Assembly: GCF_030540825.1 (NCBI RefSeq)
Contig: NZ_JAUOEO010000002.1
Location: forward strand, 372,001 to 436,000
Length of the DNA stretch: 64,000 nucleotides
Direction of reading: 5' to 3'
From: Flavivirga spongiicola
GTDB lineage: Bacteria > Bacteroidota > Bacteroidia > Flavobacteriales > Flavobacteriaceae
Below are positions 20,247 to 58,444 of this stretch, one piece after another. A model generated the notes under the pieces. That model was not told where the DNA came from. It worked only from the letters and a program-made list of their open reading frames with translations, and ran no database searches. The translations under genes were made by a program, and so were the position numbers. The stretch's first letter is position 1; every line of letters begins with the position of its first letter.

Positions 20247-22745
20247 CTATATAATCTTTTTTGTTACTCTATTTTTATGAGTATCAATAACTTCTATTAT
20301 TAAAAGTTTATTTTCTGTATTAAAACCTGGTATTTCTAATATAGAATTGTTAACATTTCTATTATTATAAATACGCTTTCCTGTAATATCAAATATCGTT
20401 ACAGATTCAATTTCACTCTTTGCGTTTTCAATATATAGTATGTTATTGTTTTTTGATACTTGTATACTATGAGGTGTTATAGTATTGTCTTCTGTACTTA
20501 ATGAGCCGCTTGACGTATTAATTCTTGCAAGTCTATTTCTTCCAGTGGTATTATAGCTGGTAAAATCTCCACCAATAATAACCTTTCCATCGCTTTGAAC
20601 AGTTGTTGAATAAAGGGTGCCATTAACTCCTGTACCTATATTAAAACTCGTATCTAAACTGCCATTACTATTTAAGCGTGCTAGTCTATTTCTTCCAATA
20701 CCATTGTAGTTGGTAAAAACGCCACCGATAATAATCTTCCCATCGCTTTGAATAGCTGTTGTTCGAACTCTACTATTGGCTCCAGTGCCAATATTAAAAC
20801 TCGTATCTAAACTACCATCGCTGTTTAATCGAGCTACTCTAGTAACTCCTGTGCCATTATACGCTCCGAAATCTCCACCGATAATAATCTTTCCATTGCT
20901 TTGTATACTTATTGTTAAAATGTTACCAGCTGACCCTGTACCAATATTAAAACTCGTATCTAAACTACCATTGGTGTTCAATCGTGCTATTTTATTAATT
21001 CCTGTGCCATTAAATGCTGTAAAATCTCCACCGATTATAATCTTTCCGTCGCTTTGAATAGCTGTTGTTAAAACACCTGCATTATTTGCTCCAGTACCAA
21101 TATTAAAACTCGTATCTAAACTACCATTGGTGTTCAATCGTGCTACTCTATTAACTAAAGAGCCATTAAAAGCTGTAAAATAGCCGCTTATAATAATCTT
21201 TCCATCACTTTGAACAGCTGCTGTTAAAACTAAACTATTAGCTCCTATGCCAATATTAAAACTCGTATCTAAGCTACCATCGCTGTTTAATCGGGCTACT
21301 TTATTAACCCCCGTGCCATTATATGCTGTAAAATCTCCACCTATAATAATCTTTCCATCACTTTGAACAGCGGTTGCATAAATGGTACCATTAGCTCCAG
21401 TACCTATATTAAAACTCGTATCTAAACTACCATCACTGTTTAATCGAGCTATTCTATTAACTGTGGTGCCATTATATATTGAAAAAGAGCCACCGATAAT
21501 GATCTTTCCATCGCTTTGAACTGTTGTTGAATGAACTATGCTATTTGATCCTGTGACCTTATTAAAGCTCATGTCTATACTACCATTGCTATTTAATCGG
21601 GCTATTTTATTGAATCTTGCGCCATTATATGCTGTAAAACGTCCACCGATAATAACCTTTCCATCACTTTGAATAGCGGTTGTATTAACGACATCATTTA
21701 TTTGTGTACCAATATTAAAACTCATATCCAAACTACCATTGCTATTTAATCGCGCTACTTTACTAACTCCTGTGTTATTATATGATGTGAAACCTCCACC
21801 GATAATAATCTTTCCATCGCTTTGAATAGCCGTTGTTAAAACTATCGCATTAACTCCTATGCCCATATTAAAACTCGTATCTAAACTACCATCACTGTTT
21901 AAACGGGCCATTCTACTAGTAACCGCGCCATTATATGCTGTTAAAAAGCCGCCGATAATAATTTTTCCATCGCTTTGAACAGACGTTGTTAAAACTAAAC
22001 TATTAGCTCCAGTGCCTATATTAAAACTCGTATCTAAACTACCATCACTGTTTAATCTGGCTACTCTATTAACTCCTGTGCCATTATATGATGTAAAACC
22101 TCCACCGATAATAAGTTTTCCATCACTTTGAAGGCTGATTGTATCAATTCTACCATTTGCACTTGCCCCTGTATTAAAACTCGTATCTAAACTACCATCG
22201 TTGTTTAATCGAGCTATTCTATTAACTATTGTGCCATTGTATGTTGTGAAATCTCCACCAATAATAACTTTCCCATCACTTTGAGAGCTTATTGTTTTAA
22301 CGATACCATTTGTTCCTGTACCTATATTAAAACTTGTATCTAAACTACCATCGCTGTTTAATCGAGCTATTCTGTTAACTCCTGTGCCATTATAAGATGT
22401 AAAATCTCCACCGATAAAAATCTTTCCGTCACTTTGAATAGCTGTTGATAGTACTTTATTACTTGCTCCTGTACCTGTATTAAAACTTGTATCTAAATTG
22501 CCATTGCTATTTAAGCGGGTAAGGTAATAAGCTGATGCGCCATTATATAATCTGAATTCTCCAGTGATAATGATCTTTCCATCATTTTGAACAGCCGTAG
22601 CTAAAACGGTATCACTTGCACCATCTCCATGACCAAAACCAGTATCTGTAGGATTAAAAGTGGTATCTATAGACCCGTCATTTTGAGCGCCCAAACTGGC
22701 AAATGAGATTATTAAATAAATGATTAAAATGTAATAATGTTTCAT
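20247..22745 (-). CDS. Delta-60 repeat protein with T9SS sorting tail
   Basis: 832 residues with a Sec signal peptide ending near SLGAQ. The body is 14 repeats of about 50 residues, each containing SDGKIIIGGDFTAYNG and RLNSDGSLDTSFN-type blocks (delta-60 repeats, DUF5122, probably a large beta-propeller). The last 70 residues (SVTIFDITGKRIYN, ending VTKKII) form a T9SS type A sorting domain, so it should be exported by T9SS and attached or released at the surface. Repeats are near-identical at DNA level, which favours recombination and assembly error. Confidence 0.9.
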   Translation of the reverse strand: MKHYYILIIYLIISFASLGAQNDGSIDTTFNPTDTGFGHGDGASDTVLATAVQNDGKIIITGEFRLYNGASAYYLTRLNSNGNLDTSFNTGTGASNKVLSTAIQSDGKIFIGGDFTSYNGTGVNRIARLNSDGSLDTSFNIGTGTNGIVKTISSQSDGKVIIGGDFTTYNGTIVNRIARLNNDGSLDTSFNTGASANGRIDTISLQSDGKLIIGGGFTSYNGTGVNRVARLNSDGSLDTSFNIGTGANSLVLTTSVQSDGKIIIGGFLTAYNGAVTSRMARLNSDGSLDTSFNMGIGVNAIVLTTAIQSDGKIIIGGGFTSYNNTGVSKVARLNSNGSLDMSFNIGTQINDVVNTTAIQSDGKVIIGGRFTAYNGARFNKIARLNSNGSIDMSFNKVTGSNSIVHSTTVQSDGKIIIGGSFSIYNGTTVNRIARLNSDGSLDTSFNIGTGANGTIYATAVQSDGKIIIGGDFTAYNGTGVNKVARLNSDGSLDTSFNIGIGANSLVLTAAVQSDGKIIISGYFTAFNGSLVNRVARLNTNGSLDTSFNIGTGANNAGVLTTAIQSDGKIIIGGDFTAFNGTGINKIARLNTNGSLDTSFNIGTGSAGNILTISIQSNGKIIIGGDFGAYNGTGVTRVARLNSDGSLDTSFNIGTGANSRVRTTAIQSDGKIIIGGVFTNYNGIGRNRLARLNSNGSLDTSFNIGTGVNGTLYSTTVQSDGKVIIGGDFTSYNTTGRNRLARINTSSGSLSTEDNTITPHSIQVSKNNNILYIENAKSEIESVTIFDITGKRIYNNRNVNNSILEIPGFNTENKLLIIEVIDTHKNRVTKKII

Positions 22746-22928: not shown

Positions 22929-23123
22929 TTTTTTATTAATGATCAGGCCTTTAGATTTGAGAGCGTAATCTTATTAAAGAATAAGTACTTGTTTCCTAGT
23001 GCATTGATTGATGAGAAGAAATTATTTATTAGAGAGGATGAAATTTTTCAACCTTCTTTCAATAACGACGAAAAGTGGGCAATTATATTAATTTCCTTAA
23101 GTAAAGGAAAAGGGAAGTACTAA
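22929..23123 (+). pseudogene. Possible relic ORF without start codon
   Basis: A 64-codon stretch open between TAG at 22926-22928 and TAA at 23121-23123 has protein-like composition (PSALIDEKKLFIREDE, NNDEKWAIILISLSKG) but no ATG. It may be the 3' remnant of a lost gene. It is the only coding-like signal in the 730-bp gap 22746-23477, which otherwise is AT-rich with a MITE fragment. Confidence 0.25.
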
Positions 23124-23296
23124 AAAAAATGTTTTATAGCAATAAATGACTCTATAGCCCTTCGTCACTCGAATTCAAATAAGTCTTTTTTTATGAAGGT
23201 TTAAAATTTGGTGCTTTAAGCCATGTAACTAATCTGATATGAGTACGATAAGCTTAGCCTTAAAAAACTTGTGTAAAACAAGGCTGCTTAATAAGT

Positions 23297-23344
23297 AAAT
23301 ATATTTTGTTTCGAAGGTAATATTCAGAATGACATTTTTTAGAC
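23297..23344. repeat. Fragment of the MITE-like element, inverted
   Basis: The reverse complement of this stretch reads TCTAAAAAATGTCATTCTGA followed by ATATTACCTTCGAAACAAAA (quoted in two pieces), matching the left part of the copy at 36217. The right end and the terminal repeat are missing, so it is a broken copy in the opposite orientation. Confidence 0.65.
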
Positions 23345-23477
23345 CTTTAGCTAATTAGTATAAGCCTATTATATTTAAAAGATAAAAGAATAGTTGAACT
23401 ATTTTTCAGACTAAGAAAAGTTTTAAGATCTAAAAGGCTGGGCTGGATTAGATCTATTTCTTTTCCAGCCTCTTTAA

Positions 23478-23640
23478 CTAACCTCTAACCTTATAGGAGC
23501 TAATAATATCTTTTAGCTTGAGTTTTAAACCCTCTCCGGTATCATAAACCATTTGTTCATTACTAGGGAAGGGGACTCTTCTATTATTCAATATTTTTCG
23601 ATCTTTAGATTCTAAAGCTCTTTTATCACCTCTCATTCAA
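23478..23640 (-). pseudogene. Duplicated 3' end of the 26612-27793 lipoprotein gene
   Basis: On the minus strand it encodes about 53 residues closely matching the C-terminus of the lipoprotein at 26612-27793, including MRGDKRALESKDRKIL, RRVPFPSNEQMVYDTGE and SSYKVRG plus stop. The alignment to 26612-26772 needs no gaps and is roughly 85% identical by eye, with the final 60 bases nearly unchanged. Similarity ends just past 23640. It forms the left direct repeat around the three-gene cassette at 23696-26255. Confidence 0.88.
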
Positions 23641-23695
23641 GCAGAGCAGAACAAGAACTTTTTGGGGTTTTTGAGAAGAGATAAATAATTGTTAA

Positions 23696-24328
23696 TCAAC
23701 GCCATAATTGATATCCAAAAAAACTTGTCATAACTAACACATATACTATTAATACATACACCCACTTTCCTGTAAATTTGGGTATTGGTATGGAGGATAA
23801 ATTAAGAGCCGATAGAATAATTATAATGATATAAAGAAGTATCGAAAAAGTAGCATGTTGGAAGAGGTTTTCGAATAAAAAGATAAAAGCAAGGATGATT
23901 GCGTTGTTGTCAACAGAAAGTCCCATATAAGTTTTACCATCAATAAGACCATAAATATTAAAATAGCTTAGCCGAATGGCATTGGCAGCAATAATTAAAA
24001 AAGCGCCTGGTATAAACCATATATTATAATTTCCATAACTTAAAAGTAATATTGCTGGTAAAAGACCAAAACTTACAATGTCTATCATAGAGTCGAGCTG
24101 AACTCCAAAGACACCTTGTTCTTTTGTTCTTCCTTTCATTTTACGTGCTATAATTCCATCATACCAATCGAATAATACGGCCCATAACATGCCAATAATT
24201 GATGCTGGAAAATTTCCTTTTATGGCAAAATAGATGGCTAATACAGTACAGAACAACCCTAATAAAGAGCAAATATTCGGTAAATCCTTGGCAAAAGTAA
24301 GCATGCCTAATTGTTTTTTTTCGTTCAT
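23696..24328 (-). CDS. CDP-alcohol phosphatidyltransferase family protein
   Basis: 210 residues with about six membrane segments. The catalytic signature is present: D54-x2-D57-G-x2-A-R, then G75-x3-D79-x3-D83 (stretch DWYDGIIAR and GVQLDSMID). Family members transfer an alcohol or phospho-alcohol group between CDP-linked and free alcohols in the inner membrane. It starts one base after the stop of the PLP enzyme and is third in a cytidylyltransferase-PLP enzyme-transferase operon, which implies it uses the CDP-amino-alcohol made by the first gene. Confidence 0.88.
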   Translation of the reverse strand: MNEKKQLGMLTFAKDLPNICSLLGLFCTVLAIYFAIKGNFPASIIGMLWAVLFDWYDGIIARKMKGRTKEQGVFGVQLDSMIDIVSFGLLPAILLLSYGNYNIWFIPGAFLIIAANAIRLSYFNIYGLIDGKTYMGLSVDNNAIILAFIFLFENLFQHATFSILLYIIIIILSALNLSSIPIPKFTGKWVYVLIVYVLVMTSFFGYQLWR

Positions 24329-24329
24329 C

Positions 24330-25436
24330 TTATTTGTCCTTTACATACATGACATCTTTCAACGCTTCAATAAGTTTAGCGTTTTCCTCATTAGTGCGAC
24401 TAGCAATCCGAATATATCTGTTGGCCTCGGGTTGGGTTTTTCCAGCACTGTCTTTTATATAAATATTGTGCTCAATGAAAAGTCGTTTTGTTACTTCAGG
24501 GCCACTTAAAGCTGTATCGGGTAAACGGCAATAGATATAGTTTGCATCGGGTTTAAAAACTTGCATTCCAGAAATAGCACATAGTTTTTTGTAAAAAAGG
24601 TCTCTATCAGATTTAACTATTTTACAACTATCTTCAAATTCTTGTTTGTATTTAGGAAGTATCCGAAGAAATTCTTCAGCAAACCCGTTAATATTCCAAA
24701 TATGAACTCCATTACGAACAGACTGAGCAAAATCTATATTAGCCGTTAACAGATATCCAATTCTAAGCCCACATATTCCATAGGCCTTACTCATACTTTT
24801 AAGAATAGCGATATTTGGATATTTCTCAATATCCTGCTCCAGACTTATTTGCTCTTTGTTGTCTGCAAAATCAAGAAATGATTCATCGATAATAAGCATG
24901 CAATTGTGATGCTTAAGCTTTTCAGCCAGTCGAATTAAATCACCCTTTGGAACTAATATCGATGTCGGATTATTAGGTGTAACCACCACTGCCATATCTG
25001 CACCAACTTTTATAGCTTCGTCTGCAAATTTGTCTACATCGAGTTGGAAAGAAGGGAATTCAAGTGGAAACTCCACAGCTTGTCCATTCGGTACCGCATT
25101 AGCATACTCATTAAAAGATGGTACGGGAATAATTATTTTTTTTGCTAAACTTCCTGACAGTATTTTTATAATTTCTGCACCCCCATTTCCTACAACAATT
25201 CTTTCGGTAGGTTGATCTATAATTTCACCAATAAGTTCGGCAAGTGCATCTTGTGCCATTGGATAATTCAGAACGAGGTTGTGAATATTATCTTTTAGAT
25301 GTGTAAATACGGCTTTTGGTGGAAAATATAGGTTATACAAGTATGCATGGTCAGTAAAATTGTGCCGATAATAACCTCCATGTTGTTTAGATATATATTC
25401 GTATTTTTCTTTTTGTGTTTTGTATCTGCTTTCCAT
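24330..25436 (-). CDS. HisC/CobD-like fold-type I PLP enzyme
   Basis: 368 residues, class I/II aminotransferase fold. PLP-binding features are VTPNNPTS, Asp184 in IDESFLDF and Lys217 in SMSKAYGICGLRIGY. Closest by eye are histidinol-phosphate aminotransferase and threonine-phosphate decarboxylase (CobD). No his or cobalamin genes are nearby. Between a LicC-type cytidylyltransferase and a CDP-alcohol transferase it more likely makes a phospho-amino-alcohol (by transamination or decarboxylation). The 21-bp and 1-bp gaps to its neighbours indicate one operon. Confidence 0.87.
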   Translation of the reverse strand: MESRYKTQKEKYEYISKQHGGYYRHNFTDHAYLYNLYFPPKAVFTHLKDNIHNLVLNYPMAQDALAELIGEIIDQPTERIVVGNGGAEIIKILSGSLAKKIIIPVPSFNEYANAVPNGQAVEFPLEFPSFQLDVDKFADEAIKVGADMAVVVTPNNPTSILVPKGDLIRLAEKLKHHNCMLIIDESFLDFADNKEQISLEQDIEKYPNIAILKSMSKAYGICGLRIGYLLTANIDFAQSVRNGVHIWNINGFAEEFLRILPKYKQEFEDSCKIVKSDRDLFYKKLCAISGMQVFKPDANYIYCRLPDTALSGPEVTKRLFIEHNIYIKDSAGKTQPEANRYIRIASRTNEENAKLIEALKDVMYVKDK

Positions 25437-25457
25437 AGTATTTTTATCCTAACATTA

Positions 25458-26255
25458 TTATGCAAATGCATTTTCAAATTTTGCAAACTTTCTAACTTCA
25501 CTGGGGAAAAGTAATTCAGCTTTAGCTAAATCTTTCATGTTATCAATTTCATACCATGGTTTATTGTCAAACGAAACCGATTCAAATCTCAGACTTTTAT
25601 TATCCACCATTTCAGAAAAAACGGTTTCATAATAACAGTTAACACTGCCCGCACTAATATATTTATTCAAGTTTTTGACAATTGCCAGCCAAGATGAAAG
25701 TGAAAAGCTGTATATATTAACAGTTTTATATCGGATATCGGAATAAGATTCTGTAGTTCCTTTTTGAAATTGAGTAACATTATTGGTATGATCAATAGAA
25801 ACTGTTGTTCCATTTAGCCAAGGTTGCATAAGAGCTACAGCCATCCTATCGGGATAAACCATATTATCAAGTAAAGTAGAGTTCAATACCAAATCACTTT
25901 CAAAAAGCACAAAAGGCTCATTTATTATATTACGAGCCATCCAAAGCGAATAAATGTTGTTTGTTGTTTTATATAATGGACTGTGAACGTATTCAATACA
26001 AATGTCTCCTGATTTTTCACCAAGAAAATTCATGATACATTCTTGTTCATGACCTGTTACAATAACAAGTCGTTTAAATCCTTGGGTTTTTAAATTATTG
26101 ATAAGTCTTTCAAGAATCGATTTATCGTTTACAAGAGTAAGGCATTTGGGAGCGTTTTGTGTTAAAGGAAAAAGGCGGCTTCCAGTACCAGCCGCAAGAA
26201 GTAATGCTGTGGTTATGCGATTTTGACCACAATCATTGTCTGAATCACTATTCAT
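25458..26255 (-). CDS. LicC/PntC-like nucleotidyltransferase
   Basis: 265 residues. The nucleotide-binding loop LLLAAGTGSRLFPLT (residues 18-32) with Lys37, the block YKTTNNIYSLWMAR, the metal-site ESDLVLN and the late WYEIDNMKDL are typical of CTP:phosphocholine or CTP:2-aminoethylphosphonate cytidylyltransferases. It should activate a phospho-alcohol or phosphonate as a CMP derivative. First gene of the cassette. In some bacteria such a domain is fused to an aminotransferase; here the two are separate adjacent genes. Confidence 0.85.
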   Translation of the reverse strand: MNSDSDNDCGQNRITTALLLAAGTGSRLFPLTQNAPKCLTLVNDKSILERLINNLKTQGFKRLVIVTGHEQECIMNFLGEKSGDICIEYVHSPLYKTTNNIYSLWMARNIINEPFVLFESDLVLNSTLLDNMVYPDRMAVALMQPWLNGTTVSIDHTNNVTQFQKGTTESYSDIRYKTVNIYSFSLSSWLAIVKNLNKYISAGSVNCYYETVFSEMVDNKSLRFESVSFDNKPWYEIDNMKDLAKAELLFPSEVRKFAKFENAFA

Positions 26256-26309
26256 ATAAAATGTTTAGATACCATCAAAAAAAACTAAGAGCCCATATAG
26301 GCATCTAGT

Positions 26310-26326
26310 GTACTAATTATTAGTAC
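26310..26326. promoter_or_regulatory. Palindrome upstream of the CDP-alcohol cassette
   Basis: GTACTAAT-T-ATTAGTAC is a perfect 17-base odd palindrome, 55-71 bp upstream of the cytidylyltransferase start. It is the clearest regulatory candidate in the 356-bp gap 26256-26611; the rest of that gap shows no ORF or known site apart from the terminator at its end. Confidence 0.45.
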
Positions 26327-26578
26327 TCTGATGTATGGACTAGTTTCCTAATAATTCAACTATAAGTACGAAGTCTGCTAATGAGATTAATTACCAACAA
26401 AAATGATAGTGAATGATTGATACTAAAAGATTAGTAATCCTTTTGCAAAGGTACTCATAATAAATATGATTAACTAATGTTCCTGTTTTTGTACATAAAT
26501 AAGGAATGAAAGGTAGAAGTACGAAAACCTAACAATGTAATATCAAGTCGATAAGCATAACCTCCAAAAATTCCATAA

Positions 26579-26608
26579 AAAAACTCCCAACTTAAATTGG
26601 GAGTTTTT
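26579..26608 (-). terminator. Intrinsic terminator of the 393-residue lipoprotein gene
   Basis: AAAAACTCCCAA and TTGGGAGTTTTT pair over 12 bp with a 6-base loop and give a T-run on the minus strand, 3 bp past the stop at 26612. Confidence 0.85.
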
Positions 26609-26611
26609 TAA

Positions 26612-27793
26612 TCAGCCCCTAACTTTATAAGAGCTAATAATATCTTTAAGTTTTAGTTTTAGATCTTCGCCAGTATCATAAACCATTTGCTCGTTACTGG
26701 GGAAGGGGACTCTTCTGTTTCCCAGTATTTTTCGATCTTTAGATTCTAAAGCTCTTTTATCACCTCTCATTCTAGCAAAAAGGTTTCTAAAAACAAACTC
26801 ACTATCAATGGTGAAAGTGTCTAACAGCTGCTTTGTTTTTATATCTAGATACACGACATCTGCAATGACTTGTGTGGATTTTATTTGAGTAAACTCGTTA
26901 AATCGTGCTTTTACTCTAACTATTTTGTCAACCTTTATATCGTTACCTAAACTATCTTTTACAACATTACCATTGCTGTCTAATTCATATTCCCAACCAT
27001 CTGCAACGTCTTTTTCTCTAATATACTCACGTTCTTTAATACGTTCTGGTGAAATATTAATTTGTTTTAATTGTAATTGCATGGCATAGTCATACTTAAC
27101 ATCTTTATTCGGTTGCGCATGATATACCGTCCAGAATTGATTTAATCCATAGGTATCAAAATTTAGCAAATCGTCTTCTAAACGTTGCGGAATAATTTGA
27201 TTAGTACGATTTTCAATCGTTACACTTACATAGGCAGTACCTCGTTCGTGAGCCTCTTTCATTAAATCTCTGGTCTGCTCATAATTTGGGTTTATAGCTT
27301 CTATATAACTTAAAACATTGTAAGCTTCTCTAATTTGTGATTTGTCGTCTAATTCTAATAAATCTAAACCTTTTTCATAGAAATAATCTGAAACATTTTC
27401 ACGAGATTGTACAATGTCATTGCTATAATCATTGAATTTAAAAGGAATATTTTTGCCATTTACAACTAGAGGTAAAACAGGCTTTATAGCTTCCTGACGC
27501 GCATCTAAATCCAAATAAGCTTCATAAATTTCTCTATATAACTCAGGGTTCTTATCTTTTTTTAAGTGCGATATGTCATTTAAATCACGTTCAGCCGCCT
27601 TGTAATAAGCGTCTTGCAACATTAAAACATAATCGTATTTACGTTTTTTGTTTTTATTAGTCTTAAGCTTATTTAACGCTGTTGTAATAGCCTGATCATA
27701 GTTACCAGAGTTAACAGCAGCCTCAACTTGCTTTTTTCCGCCACAAGCGACAAGCATAGAAAGGCCTATTATAAAAAGTAGTAGTTTTTTCAT
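26612..27793 (-). CDS. Conserved lipoprotein with TPR-like N-terminus
   Basis: 393 residues. Lipobox LVAC gives Cys17. Residues 25-185 look like helical tetratricopeptide-type repeats (NSGNYDQAITTALNKL, YEAYLDLDARQEA), and the C-terminal half is beta-rich (VIADVVYLDIKTKQLL). The role is unknown to me; the family appears to be widespread in flavobacteria. The last 53 codons occur a second time at 23478-23640, on the other side of the three-gene cassette. Confidence 0.8.
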   Translation of the reverse strand: MKKLLLFIIGLSMLVACGGKKQVEAAVNSGNYDQAITTALNKLKTNKNKKRKYDYVLMLQDAYYKAAERDLNDISHLKKDKNPELYREIYEAYLDLDARQEAIKPVLPLVVNGKNIPFKFNDYSNDIVQSRENVSDYFYEKGLDLLELDDKSQIREAYNVLSYIEAINPNYEQTRDLMKEAHERGTAYVSVTIENRTNQIIPQRLEDDLLNFDTYGLNQFWTVYHAQPNKDVKYDYAMQLQLKQINISPERIKEREYIREKDVADGWEYELDSNGNVVKDSLGNDIKVDKIVRVKARFNEFTQIKSTQVIADVVYLDIKTKQLLDTFTIDSEFVFRNLFARMRGDKRALESKDRKILGNRRVPFPSNEQMVYDTGEDLKLKLKDIISSYKVRG

Positions 27794-27978
27794 GGGATGA
27801 ATGTTATTGGTTACTTAGGGAGTTAACCCAATAGTTGTGCCAAAATACTAAAAAAACAGATAAAATGCCAATAAACACGTTTAAATGAATTTATTTTTAT
27901 TTATTGTAAGTTTTTTATTTCAAAAAAATAATTTCAAATATAGCCAGTAATGGGCTAGAAAAACAGATTAAGTTTTTG

Positions 27979-29271
27979 TTATTTGTTTTTTTTAGGATTA
28001 AAAACCGGAAGCAGTTTTGTAGAAACTTCACCAAAACCAATCCGTGTCCCTTCTTTTTCACAAAAACCTCTCATAATAACAGTATCGTGGTCGTTGATAA
28101 ACTTACGTTCTGAACCATCCTTCATTTTTAGTGGCTTTTCACCTTTCCACGAAAGTTCCAGCATAGATCCATAAGAATCTGGTGTAGGTCCAGAAATAGT
28201 ACCACTTCCCATCATATCACCAGAGTTTACAGGACAACCATTAACAGTATGATGTGTTAATTGTTGTGCCATATTCCAATACATATATTTAAAATTAGAC
28301 TTACTAACCACTGTTTCTTTGGCACCTTTTGGTTGTATAGCAACTTCTAAATTAATATCGAAGCTCTTTTTTCCCTTGTATTTAAGGTATTCAAGCTGTG
28401 GTTTTATAGGTTTAGGACCTTCAACTCTGTAAGGCTCTAAAGCATCAAGTGTTACAATCCATGGTGAGATTGAAGATGCGAAGTTTTTAGCTAAAAATGG
28501 ACCTAAAGGTACATATTCCCATTTTTGAATATCTCGAGCACTCCAATCGTTAAATAAGACGAGTCCAAAAATGTATTCTTCGGCTTCTTCTATTGGAATA
28601 GATTCTCCTAAATCGTTGGCATCCGTAGTTATAAACGCCATTTCTAATTCAAAATCAACTAATTTACTGGGTCCGAAAACAGGCTCTTTAGCATCACCAG
28701 GCAATGTTTGTCCTTGTGGTCTGTGAACTGGAATGCCAGAAGGAATAATAGAAGAACTACGGCCATGGTACCCAACTGGAATGTGTAACCAATTTGGTAA
28801 TAAGGCATTATCAGGATCTCTAAACATGGTTCCTACATTAGTAGCGTGTTCTTTACTTGAGTAAAAATCTGTATAATCTCCAATATGCACAGGTAATTGC
28901 ATTTCAATTTCATCTAAACGAAATAATACAATTTCTTTATGTTTTTTGTTGTTTTTAAGTGATGTGTTTTCAGAATCAAAAATATCTGCAATTCTATTAC
29001 GAACCAAACGCCATGTTTTTCTACCATCTGCAATAAAATCATTTAAAGTATCTTGAAGAAAAATATCCTCTGTTAATGGAATATCCTTAAAATAACCTAA
29101 TTGATGTAAAGCCCCAAGATCTATGGCTGTATCACCAATACGTGTTCCTATGGTTATGATATCATCTCGAGTTAAGAAAACGCCGAAAGGAATATTCTGA
29201 ATAGGAAAATCTGAATTCTTATCTACGTGTAACCACGACTTTCTATCTGGATTGTTAGCTGATAACGGCAT
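27979..29271 (-). CDS. fahA: Fumarylacetoacetase
   Basis: 430 residues, usual length. The block IGDYTDFYSSKEHATNVG holds the catalytic His and metal ligands; GYHGRSSSI, PVHRPQGQ, LVDFELEMAFI and the later FNDWSARDIQKWEY are all typical. It cleaves fumarylacetoacetate to fumarate and acetoacetate, the last step of tyrosine catabolism. The other tyrosine genes are not in the window. It is divergent from glyA. Confidence 0.96.
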   Translation of the reverse strand: MPLSANNPDRKSWLHVDKNSDFPIQNIPFGVFLTRDDIITIGTRIGDTAIDLGALHQLGYFKDIPLTEDIFLQDTLNDFIADGRKTWRLVRNRIADIFDSENTSLKNNKKHKEIVLFRLDEIEMQLPVHIGDYTDFYSSKEHATNVGTMFRDPDNALLPNWLHIPVGYHGRSSSIIPSGIPVHRPQGQTLPGDAKEPVFGPSKLVDFELEMAFITTDANDLGESIPIEEAEEYIFGLVLFNDWSARDIQKWEYVPLGPFLAKNFASSISPWIVTLDALEPYRVEGPKPIKPQLEYLKYKGKKSFDINLEVAIQPKGAKETVVSKSNFKYMYWNMAQQLTHHTVNGCPVNSGDMMGSGTISGPTPDSYGSMLELSWKGEKPLKMKDGSERKFINDHDTVIMRGFCEKEGTRIGFGEVSTKLLPVFNPKKNK

Positions 29272-57837: not shown

Positions 57838-58033
57838 TTATGCTTTAATTGAATATATTTTGAATACAAATTTTGAGTAATTCTGAAAAATGATTTCTTA
57901 TTTTCTGAAGAATTAACCACTTGTAATAGCGGTTGTTGAGAATTATTACTGCAATTATACAACTTTATTTTAAGTTTTAAGAGTATTTTTATAAAAGAAA
58001 CTATTATTTTTGCTTTCAGGTTTTTAAAACTAT

Positions 58034-58444
58034 ATGTTACAGCGTATTCAAACTATATACCTTTTAATGGCGGCAGGAATTTCTGTTGGTCTAATTTTTG
58101 TCTTTCATTTGTGGATTACGGATGAAGGTATTACGATGTTTGCTAAAGATGATATTCTATACTTAGGATTCTTTTTAGGCTCTGCAATATTATCTTTAAT
58201 AGCTATATTTATGTACAAAAATAGGAAGTCTCAATTTGTTTTGGGGCGACTTAACATCATATTAAACTTTATTTTACTAGGATTTTTTGTATATCAATCT
58301 CTAAACATATCTGGAGAAACGGCGGTTTCTGAGAAAGGTATTGGGATGATTCTTCCTATTGTTTCTATCGTGTTTTTGGCATTAGCCAATAAGGCCATCA
58401 AAAAGGATGAAGATCTCGTAAAATCTGTAGATCGATTACGATAA
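58034..58444 (+). CDS. DUF4293 membrane protein
   Basis: 136 residues, four membrane segments. MLQRIQTIYLLMAAG is the family start, followed by RKSQFVLGRLNIILNFILLG. Inner-membrane protein of unknown function that lies next to rho, divergently, in this window and, as I recall, in many flavobacteria. A TATTTTTG element at 58005-58012 precedes it. Confidence 0.88.
   Translation: MLQRIQTIYLLMAAGISVGLIFVFHLWITDEGITMFAKDDILYLGFFLGSAILSLIAIFMYKNRKSQFVLGRLNIILNFILLGFFVYQSLNISGETAVSEKGIGMILPIVSIVFLALANKAIKKDEDLVKSVDRLR

Follow-up and report, generated by a model that had tools for sequence, protein, structure and literature searches.

A stretch of 64,000 nucleotides from Flavivirga spongiicola (contig NZ_JAUOEO010000002.1, hereafter the window) carries a cassette of three adjoining genes. 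They encode a nucleoside triphosphate (NTP) transferase resembling LicC and PntC, a pyridoxal phosphate (PLP) enzyme resembling CobD and SMUL_1544, and a cytidine diphosphate (CDP)-alcohol phosphatidyltransferase. On balance, we think it probable that this cassette is a mobile operon, probably under RNA control, whose products make a CDP-activated amino-alcohol and transfer the phospho-amino-alcohol to a membrane lipid. The PLP enzyme would decarboxylate a phosphorylated hydroxy-amino acid, most likely O-phospho-L-serine to ethanolamine phosphate, less likely O-phospho-L-threonine to 1-aminopropan-2-ol phosphate. The LicC/PntC-like enzyme would link the phosphate to cytidine monophosphate (CMP), before or after decarboxylation, and the CDP-alcohol transferase would pass the head group from the CDP-compound to the hydroxyl of diacylglycerol, ceramide, or another lipid, releasing CMP. 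CDP-ethanolamine is the most likely product, leading to a phosphoethanolamine lipid, and ceramide is a possible acceptor. The initial annotation of this DNA had proposed the same succession of PLP enzyme, cytidylyltransferase, and membrane attachment; it is the best-supported reading, in which substrate and acceptor are predictions.

The genes lie on the minus strand exactly where the initial annotation had placed them (Table 1), with gaps of 21 bp between the NTP transferase and PLP genes (25437-25457) and of 1 bp between the PLP and CDP-alcohol transferase genes (24329). Each product exceeds the curated cut-off of its Pfam families: PF00483/PF12804 for the NTP transferase, PF00155 for the aminotransferase fold, and PF01066 for the CDP-alcohol transferase. 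The solved structures closest to the NTP transferase by sequence are LicC (1jyk, 1e-15) and PntC (6pd1, 2e-11). The motif DxxDGxxAR...GxxxDxxxD of the CDP-alcohol transferase is entire in all 43 cassette-family sequences. Its spacing, AR-x12-G, recurs in 3 of 7 distant relatives (the pattern was not found in the remaining 4), and is AR-x8-G in the PssA-like protein of the window's genome.

Table 1. Features of the cassette region (positions in the window).
Feature	Positions	Strand	Basis
NTP (cytidylyl-) transferase, LicC/PntC-like, 265 amino acids	25458..26255	-	Open reading frame, family and structure matches
PLP enzyme, CobD/SMUL_1544-like, probable phospho-amino-acid decarboxylase, 368 amino acids	24330..25436	-	Sequence, profile, fold, residues
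CDP-alcohol phosphatidyltransferase, PS-synthase-like fold, 210 amino acids	23696..24328	-	Pfam, structure matches, motif DxxDGxxAR-x12-GxxxDxxxD
Conserved structured RNA leader, terminal hairpin and U-run shortly before the NTP transferase gene	26256..26444	-	Alignment, covariance model
Bacteroidota-type promoter, ATTAG near -33 and TACCTTTGC (26445-26453) as -7 box	26445..26482	-	Conserved upstream alignment
Direct repeat, copy in the upstream gene (26612-27793), 3' end	26607..26777	-	Repeat comparison
Direct repeat, orphan second copy of the upstream gene's 3' end, downstream of the cassette	23473..23643	-	Insertion footprint

The cassette is a real gene unit, kept together beyond chance. 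The PLP enzyme, used to scan genome contigs, gave 39 loci of other genomes, whose best segments are 72-89% identical. By title, 31 are from Bacteroidota and 8 from Chlorobiota, Melioribacteraceae, Calditrichota, Desulfobacteria or Deltaproteobacteria, and Rhodospirillales; most are metagenome-assembled genomes (MAGs), and many of these names are MAG labels open to binning errors. The three genes follow in the same order in 33 of the 39 loci, even if the CDP-alcohol transferase gene leaves the contig in L019 and L029 and the PLP gene of L038 matches residues 144-364 only. Five others lack one gene each where the contig starts (L011, L027, L032, L033) or stops (L037). The sole true exception is L040, where a contig-cut PLP gene has no CDP-alcohol transferase gene adjoining it. 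All three genes are also present in each of five further loci from genomes of relatives. The neighbours are nearly unrelated: among 333 neighbouring open reading frames of the 44 loci, no family occurs in more than 4 loci, and no Pfam family accounts for more than 4 of the 128 near neighbours (25 of the 175 families listed). Fused forms occur among more distant relatives. Fusions of NTP transferase and PLP enzyme in Rahnella (5e-71) and Priestia (4e-59), and partial NTP transferase parts in Erwinia and Agrobacterium vitis, tie these two enzymes together; Erwinia also has a fusion of PLP enzyme and CDP-alcohol transferase, in a decayed-looking region.

The PLP enzyme most resembles a decarboxylase. 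By sequence, by profile, and by fold its nearest match is SMUL_1544, and CobD comes a close second. The closest solved structure by sequence is 6oux (4e-41), titled as SMUL_1544, a decarboxylase from Sulfurospirillum multivorans, followed by 3ftb and then by CobD 1lc5. The best NCBIfam match is the CobD model TIGR01140, at 176.9 bits (under the cut-off of 290.55); the Sulfurospirillum protein annotated as serine-O-phosphate decarboxylase also obtains just 174.2 bits. The motif D-E-S-F is found in 13 of 13 cassette rows, in their relatives, and in the annotated serine-O-phosphate decarboxylase, while CobD and 3ftb have D-E-A-F and the HisC of the window's genome has D-E-A-Y. Among residues picked from the CobD and HisC literature, Y58, N156, D184, F187, K217, R225, W247-N248-I249-N250, R343, and R347 are invariant in all 42 cassette-family sequences and in the annotated Sulfurospirillum enzyme. 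The initial annotation had conceded that an ordinary HisC would undo its proposal. We rejected this identity: the enzyme scores 141.9 bits on the HisC model TIGR01141 (cut-off 276.55), the genome's true HisC is encoded between hisD and hisB and scores 357.6 bits, and the cassette motif differs from that of this HisC. We favour a decarboxylase of the CobD/SMUL_1544 type over an aminotransferase, which makes phosphoserine or phosphothreonine a likelier substrate than a keto-phosphate.

The distribution of phosphonate genes points the same way. A tblastn search (E 1e-5) of the window and the 44 cassette loci found no gene for phosphoenolpyruvate (PEP) mutase, Ppd, or AEPT. PEP mutase scores above the cut-off in only 3 of the 32 cassette genomes tested and in none of the other 29; the set comprises the window's genome, five near-complete relatives (four congeners and one of another genus, none of the five with a PEP mutase above the cut-off), and 26 of the 39 locus genomes, of which many are possibly incomplete MAGs. 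Phosphoserine or phosphothreonine thus fits best, and we rejected a general dependence on PEP mutase. The gene psd is present in 31 of the 32 genomes (one only as a fragment at a contig end) and is accompanied by a pssA-like gene in the window's genome. We therefore rejected the cassette as a replacement of psd, and what was first called an alternative aminophospholipid pathway is better described as an additional one.

Several observations limit or weigh against the proposed decarboxylation of a phospho-amino acid. The fold model of the PLP enzyme is poor (predicted local distance difference test score, pLDDT, 68.5), and the cassette differs from the serine-phosphate decarboxylase at H19/N, G20/A, Y22/S, M60/S, S107/T, and K328/R. 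The genome's own HisC obtains 196 bits on the CobD model, showing that CobD and HisC scores overlap, and 3ftb, the second-best solved match, was deposited as a histidinol-phosphate aminotransferase despite its motif. These two points leave room for an aminotransferase of HisC-family fold, which would aminate a keto-phosphate, e.g., dihydroxyacetone phosphate to serinol phosphate, along the lines of Campylobacter Cj1437 cited in the initial annotation, and which could account for the score on the HisC model. We regard this as unlikely, because a decarboxylase is the best match in each of four comparisons and the motif is D-E-S-F instead of D-E-A-Y. Another possibility is that the cassette attaches a phosphonate (2-aminoethylphosphonate, AEP, or phosphonoalanine, with a PEP mutase encoded elsewhere) to a lipid. 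The NTP transferase resembles PntC, and a separate pepM-ppd-AEPT-like cluster is present on a different contig of the window's genome, which leaves a phosphonate role conceivable in this genome. The earlier statement that no PEP mutase or decarboxylase is nearby thus stands for the window and the loci and does not extend to the whole genome. Furthermore, we found 24 plasmid records with distant relatives (20 listed at 28-43% identity) and opened 16 regions. Six of these, at 34-43% identity, have aepX close to the PLP gene (Rhizobium 007, M. loti, Bradyrhizobium 187, S. meliloti AK83, S. garamanticum, and S. fredii CCBAU 83666), which suggests that these relatives act on phosphonates; no ppd is annotated in the 16 regions, for which the gene table is incomplete. 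A constant company of pepM and ppd, named at the outset as a ground for abandoning the proposal, is therefore partly true of distant relatives and fails for the cassette, and the rarity of PEP mutase among cassette genomes, with none above the cut-off in the near-complete relatives and none in the loci, makes a phosphonolipid rather unlikely.

The last enzyme raises the question of direction. Its closest solved structure by sequence is the phosphatidylserine (PS) synthase 7pow/7b1k (2e-10), and its predicted fold is PS-synthase-like (pLDDT 82.8), with CEPT1 ranking far below. It obtains 79.3 bits on the PssA model TIGR00473, under the cut-off of 107 (the other PF01066 protein of the genome, at 91.3 bits, is also below it), and 103.2 bits on the archaetidylserine synthase model (cut-off 240). 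In enzymes of the PS synthase and archaetidylserine synthase type the donor is a CDP-lipid. The likeness to PS synthase, by sequence and by model, therefore also counts against our proposal, as the last step could run the opposite way. The acceptor, too, could be a glycan, a polyprenyl carrier, or a secreted metabolite and not a glycerolipid or sphingolipid of the membrane: related modules occur in natural-product-like clusters of Rahnella, Erwinia, and Priestia, and L021 and L022 have an ATP-grasp-like gene right after the cassette. We consider this quite unlikely, given that glycan or natural-product genes do not recur beside the cassette (see the counts of near neighbours above) and that the last enzyme belongs to a lipid-synthesising family. 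Transfer of the head group to a lipid is thus the outcome we prefer.

A second finding, absent from the initial annotation, is a conserved non-coding stretch of ~190-220 nt between a promoter-like element and the NTP transferase gene. The Bacteroidota promoter consensus is TAnnTTTG. In 26 of the 28 aligned loci (L035 and L038 were left out), this leader is 78-89% identical to that of the window (mean 83%), counted over aligned positions only, which make up 85-93% of the longer sequence; the fourfold degenerate sites of the PLP gene are 31-62% identical in the same 26 pairs (mean 45%). The consensus structure has 42 pairs in 7 helices, formed in 96.5% of the cells versus 29-45% with slid partners, a comparison favoured by deriving the structure from the alignment on which it is scored. 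Both sides change at 7 pairs, a number reached by none of 500 shuffles. The slid versions speak against reading much into this, because they show such changes in similar numbers (4-10 pairs); the weight lies in the pairing itself and in the type of change. Among 1213 cells, G-U on the transcribed strand accounts for 238 and A-C (G-U of the other strand) for only 8, indicating that the structure belongs to the RNA read in the direction of the operon. The leader is thus a conserved RNA structure under strong selection, in which the changes are compatible with pairing in the transcribed strand. When the sequences are folded singly, the signal is weak in L007 (z -0.74) and moderate in the window (z -2.45), so that the case for the structure is made by the alignment. 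The upstream alignment omits L014 (short) and L038 (skipped by hand), which was kept in the leader alignment; the latter omits L014, L021, L022, L031, L034, and L041.

The leader probably regulates expression of the operon. Its terminal hairpin and, right ahead of the start codon, a U-run suggest attenuation, if only tentatively since a simple scan of L007 and the window found no classical terminator. A switch pairing between CAUCA and an upstream UGAUG was left unsupported (93.6% of the cells pair, with no covariation). We also rejected a coding role: the longest ATG reading stretch is 1-46 codons, most commonly 17 (7 of 29 leaders), and the alignment has indels of 1 and 2 nt. No Rfam family reaches its gathering score in window positions 23000-28000. 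A covariance model built from 29 leaders (L014 and L067-L071 were not among the builders) identified 35 leaders in 50 sources, L032, L033, and L040 being excluded from the search, and every one of them precedes the cassette. The sole match away from a cassette is weak and partial (window 58000-58065, E 0.06), and no leader is recognisable before the cassettes of L021, L022, L031, L034, and L041. Run on 60 relatives and on 395 sampled genomes of the class, the model matched cassette-bearing genomes only, under stricter filters that lose weak matches. The leader RNA is a finding in its own right, being under strong selection, without an Rfam match, and essentially restricted to the cassette in the material searched. 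A stretch in the loop of helix 4 and next to it, present in the other aligned leaders, is missing from that of the window.

The operon moves horizontally and recurs at unrelated sites in genomes assigned to several phyla. Its distribution is patchy. In the genus of the window, 5 of 12 genomes have the PLP gene; the same five carry the leader, and the sites differ. The PLP proteins of the other four congeners are 84-90% identical to that of the window and those of Labilibaculum 87-88%, although Labilibaculum belongs to another family, Marinifilaceae, and presumably to a separate order. In the tree, the window and one congener cluster with two Labilibaculum rows (support 100/98). Among the 395 genomes of the class sample, the cassette enzyme (E 1e-60) is found only in that of the window, besides one distant relative at 32% identity.

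An insertion footprint, likewise new relative to the initial annotation, brackets the cassette of the window: a direct repeat of 171 bp whose copies are 87% identical. The end of the upstream gene is single-copy in 14-kb stretches of six congeners lacking the cassette at this site, and the repeat marks the insertion. Locus-specific repeats of other sequence bracket the cassette in 5 more loci, giving 6 of 35 loci with enough flank versus 4 of 268 control intervals (Fisher p = 2e-4, a rough value because the control intervals overlap). The remaining 29 loci have no flanking repeat at that threshold, which tempers the generality of this footprint. In L023, and perhaps in L005, what brackets the cassette may be a dispersed repeat and not a target copy. 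The repeat of L025 is the end of a tRNA-Thr gene, and in a tRNA search covering 25 loci a tRNA is also close in L018, L030, and L068, with the cassette on its 3' side. An adjoining integrase is not supported as the mover, with Phage_integrase matching only 2 of 128 neighbouring proteins. In L022, a pair of 48-bp repeats encloses the cassette together with its ATP-grasp-like gene.

Several known systems resemble parts of the cassette. FrbH, from FR-900098 biosynthesis, is a characterised cytidylyltransferase-decarboxylase of 2-amino-4-phosphonobutyrate that cytidylylates before decarboxylation (PMC8976061, PMC6697681). The likeness, drawn by description only, is a cytidylyltransferase joined to a decarboxylase acting on the same amino-acid substrate. 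However, FrbH is one protein with a phosphonate substrate, whereas the cassette has separate genes, adds a membrane transferase as third gene, and mostly occurs without pepM. PntC of Treponema denticola and Atopobium rimae and LicC belong to the same family as the NTP transferase of the cassette and follow the same logic, in which a small amino-phosph(on)ate is activated with CMP (PMC6697681). Yet PntC is tied to PEP mutase, Ppd, and AEPT, as the cassette mostly is not, and the PLP partner is CobD-like in the cassette and a class V AEPT for 6pd1. SMUL_1544 is the closest solved relative by sequence and fold, with a number of the inspected active-site positions in common, and it is suggested that it might make ethanolamine phosphate for norpseudo-B12 (PMC4585668). 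The Sulfurospirillum homologue lies among corrinoid genes, whereas the neighbours of the cassette vary, and positions including K328/R differ. The ethanolamine phosphate role of SMUL_1544 is reported to have been proven later.

The predicted last two steps resemble the eukaryotic Kennedy pathway, from CDP-ethanolamine and CDP-choline to phosphatidylethanolamine and phosphatidylcholine (PMC8027125). They differ in that the phosphate ester of the cassette would come from a phospho-amino acid instead of an ethanolamine kinase, and in that the transferase model is nearest to PS synthase and far from CEPT1. The capsule enzymes Cj1436/Cj1437 of Campylobacter, which are HisC/CobD-like, provide ethanolamine or serinol phosphate for CDP activation; we set them beside the cassette by description only, theirs being a capsule glycan pathway. 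A bolder reading, possible if doubtful, is that the leader represents a new class of riboswitch or attenuator. Responding to a metabolite or membrane signal, it would govern a mobile, kinase-free CDP-ethanolamine or CDP-aminopropanol route to a lipid, possibly ceramide, beside pss/psd. Decarboxylation of phosphoserine (or phosphothreonine), or of its CMP conjugate, would then make the cassette a bacterial counterpart of the Kennedy pathway. In the open literature, which most subscription papers lie outside, we recognised no paper on this cassette or its leader.

If our preferred reading of a lipid head-group operon is true, bacteria of apparently several phyla exchange a compact membrane head-group pathway that exists beside the textbook pss/psd route and begins at a phospho-amino acid, not at free ethanolamine. 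A single unit brings together decarboxylases of the CobD/SMUL_1544 kind, cytidylyltransferases of the LicC/PntC kind, and CDP-alcohol transferases, for the most part in the absence of PEP mutase, so that annotating such genes as 'phosphonate' or 'histidinol-phosphate aminotransferase' would then mislead.

The material contained further clusters and neighbouring genes. The phosphonate cluster of the window's genome (L066:5734-13782, at ~4039.7-4047.8 kb of contig C1) encodes a PEP mutase whose N-terminal domain is cytidylyltransferase-like, together with Ppd, a cytidylyltransferase-AEPT-like fusion protein, a CoA-ligase-like protein, and an ATP-grasp-like protein. Rhizobial plasmid clusters (L048, L052, L055, and L047 with L090, L092, and L093) associate PEP mutase and the PLP enzyme with an NTP transferase, a CDP-alcohol transferase, or both. 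Where aepX is present, phosphonoalanine might be turned into AEP without ppd, by means of an aminotransferase and the decarboxylase-like enzyme of the cluster. The M. mediterraneum region has a GHMP kinase nearby instead of aepX. On pBM700 of Priestia megaterium (L049), the NTP transferase-PLP fusion is clustered with two ATP-grasp genes and an annotated copy of dxr, suggestive of a phosphonate targeting DXR. Related methyltransferase genes adjoin the cassette in three loci (L032:1794-2687, L035:7978-8832, and L041:9782-10633) and might methylate the head group. The ATP-grasp gene right after the cassette (L021:7789-9069 and L022:4456-5739) is amino-acid-ligase-like. Finally, the minus strand of the window encodes, at 20247-22745, a long beta-propeller-like protein with delta-60/DUF5122 repeats and a C-terminal signal for type IX secretion.

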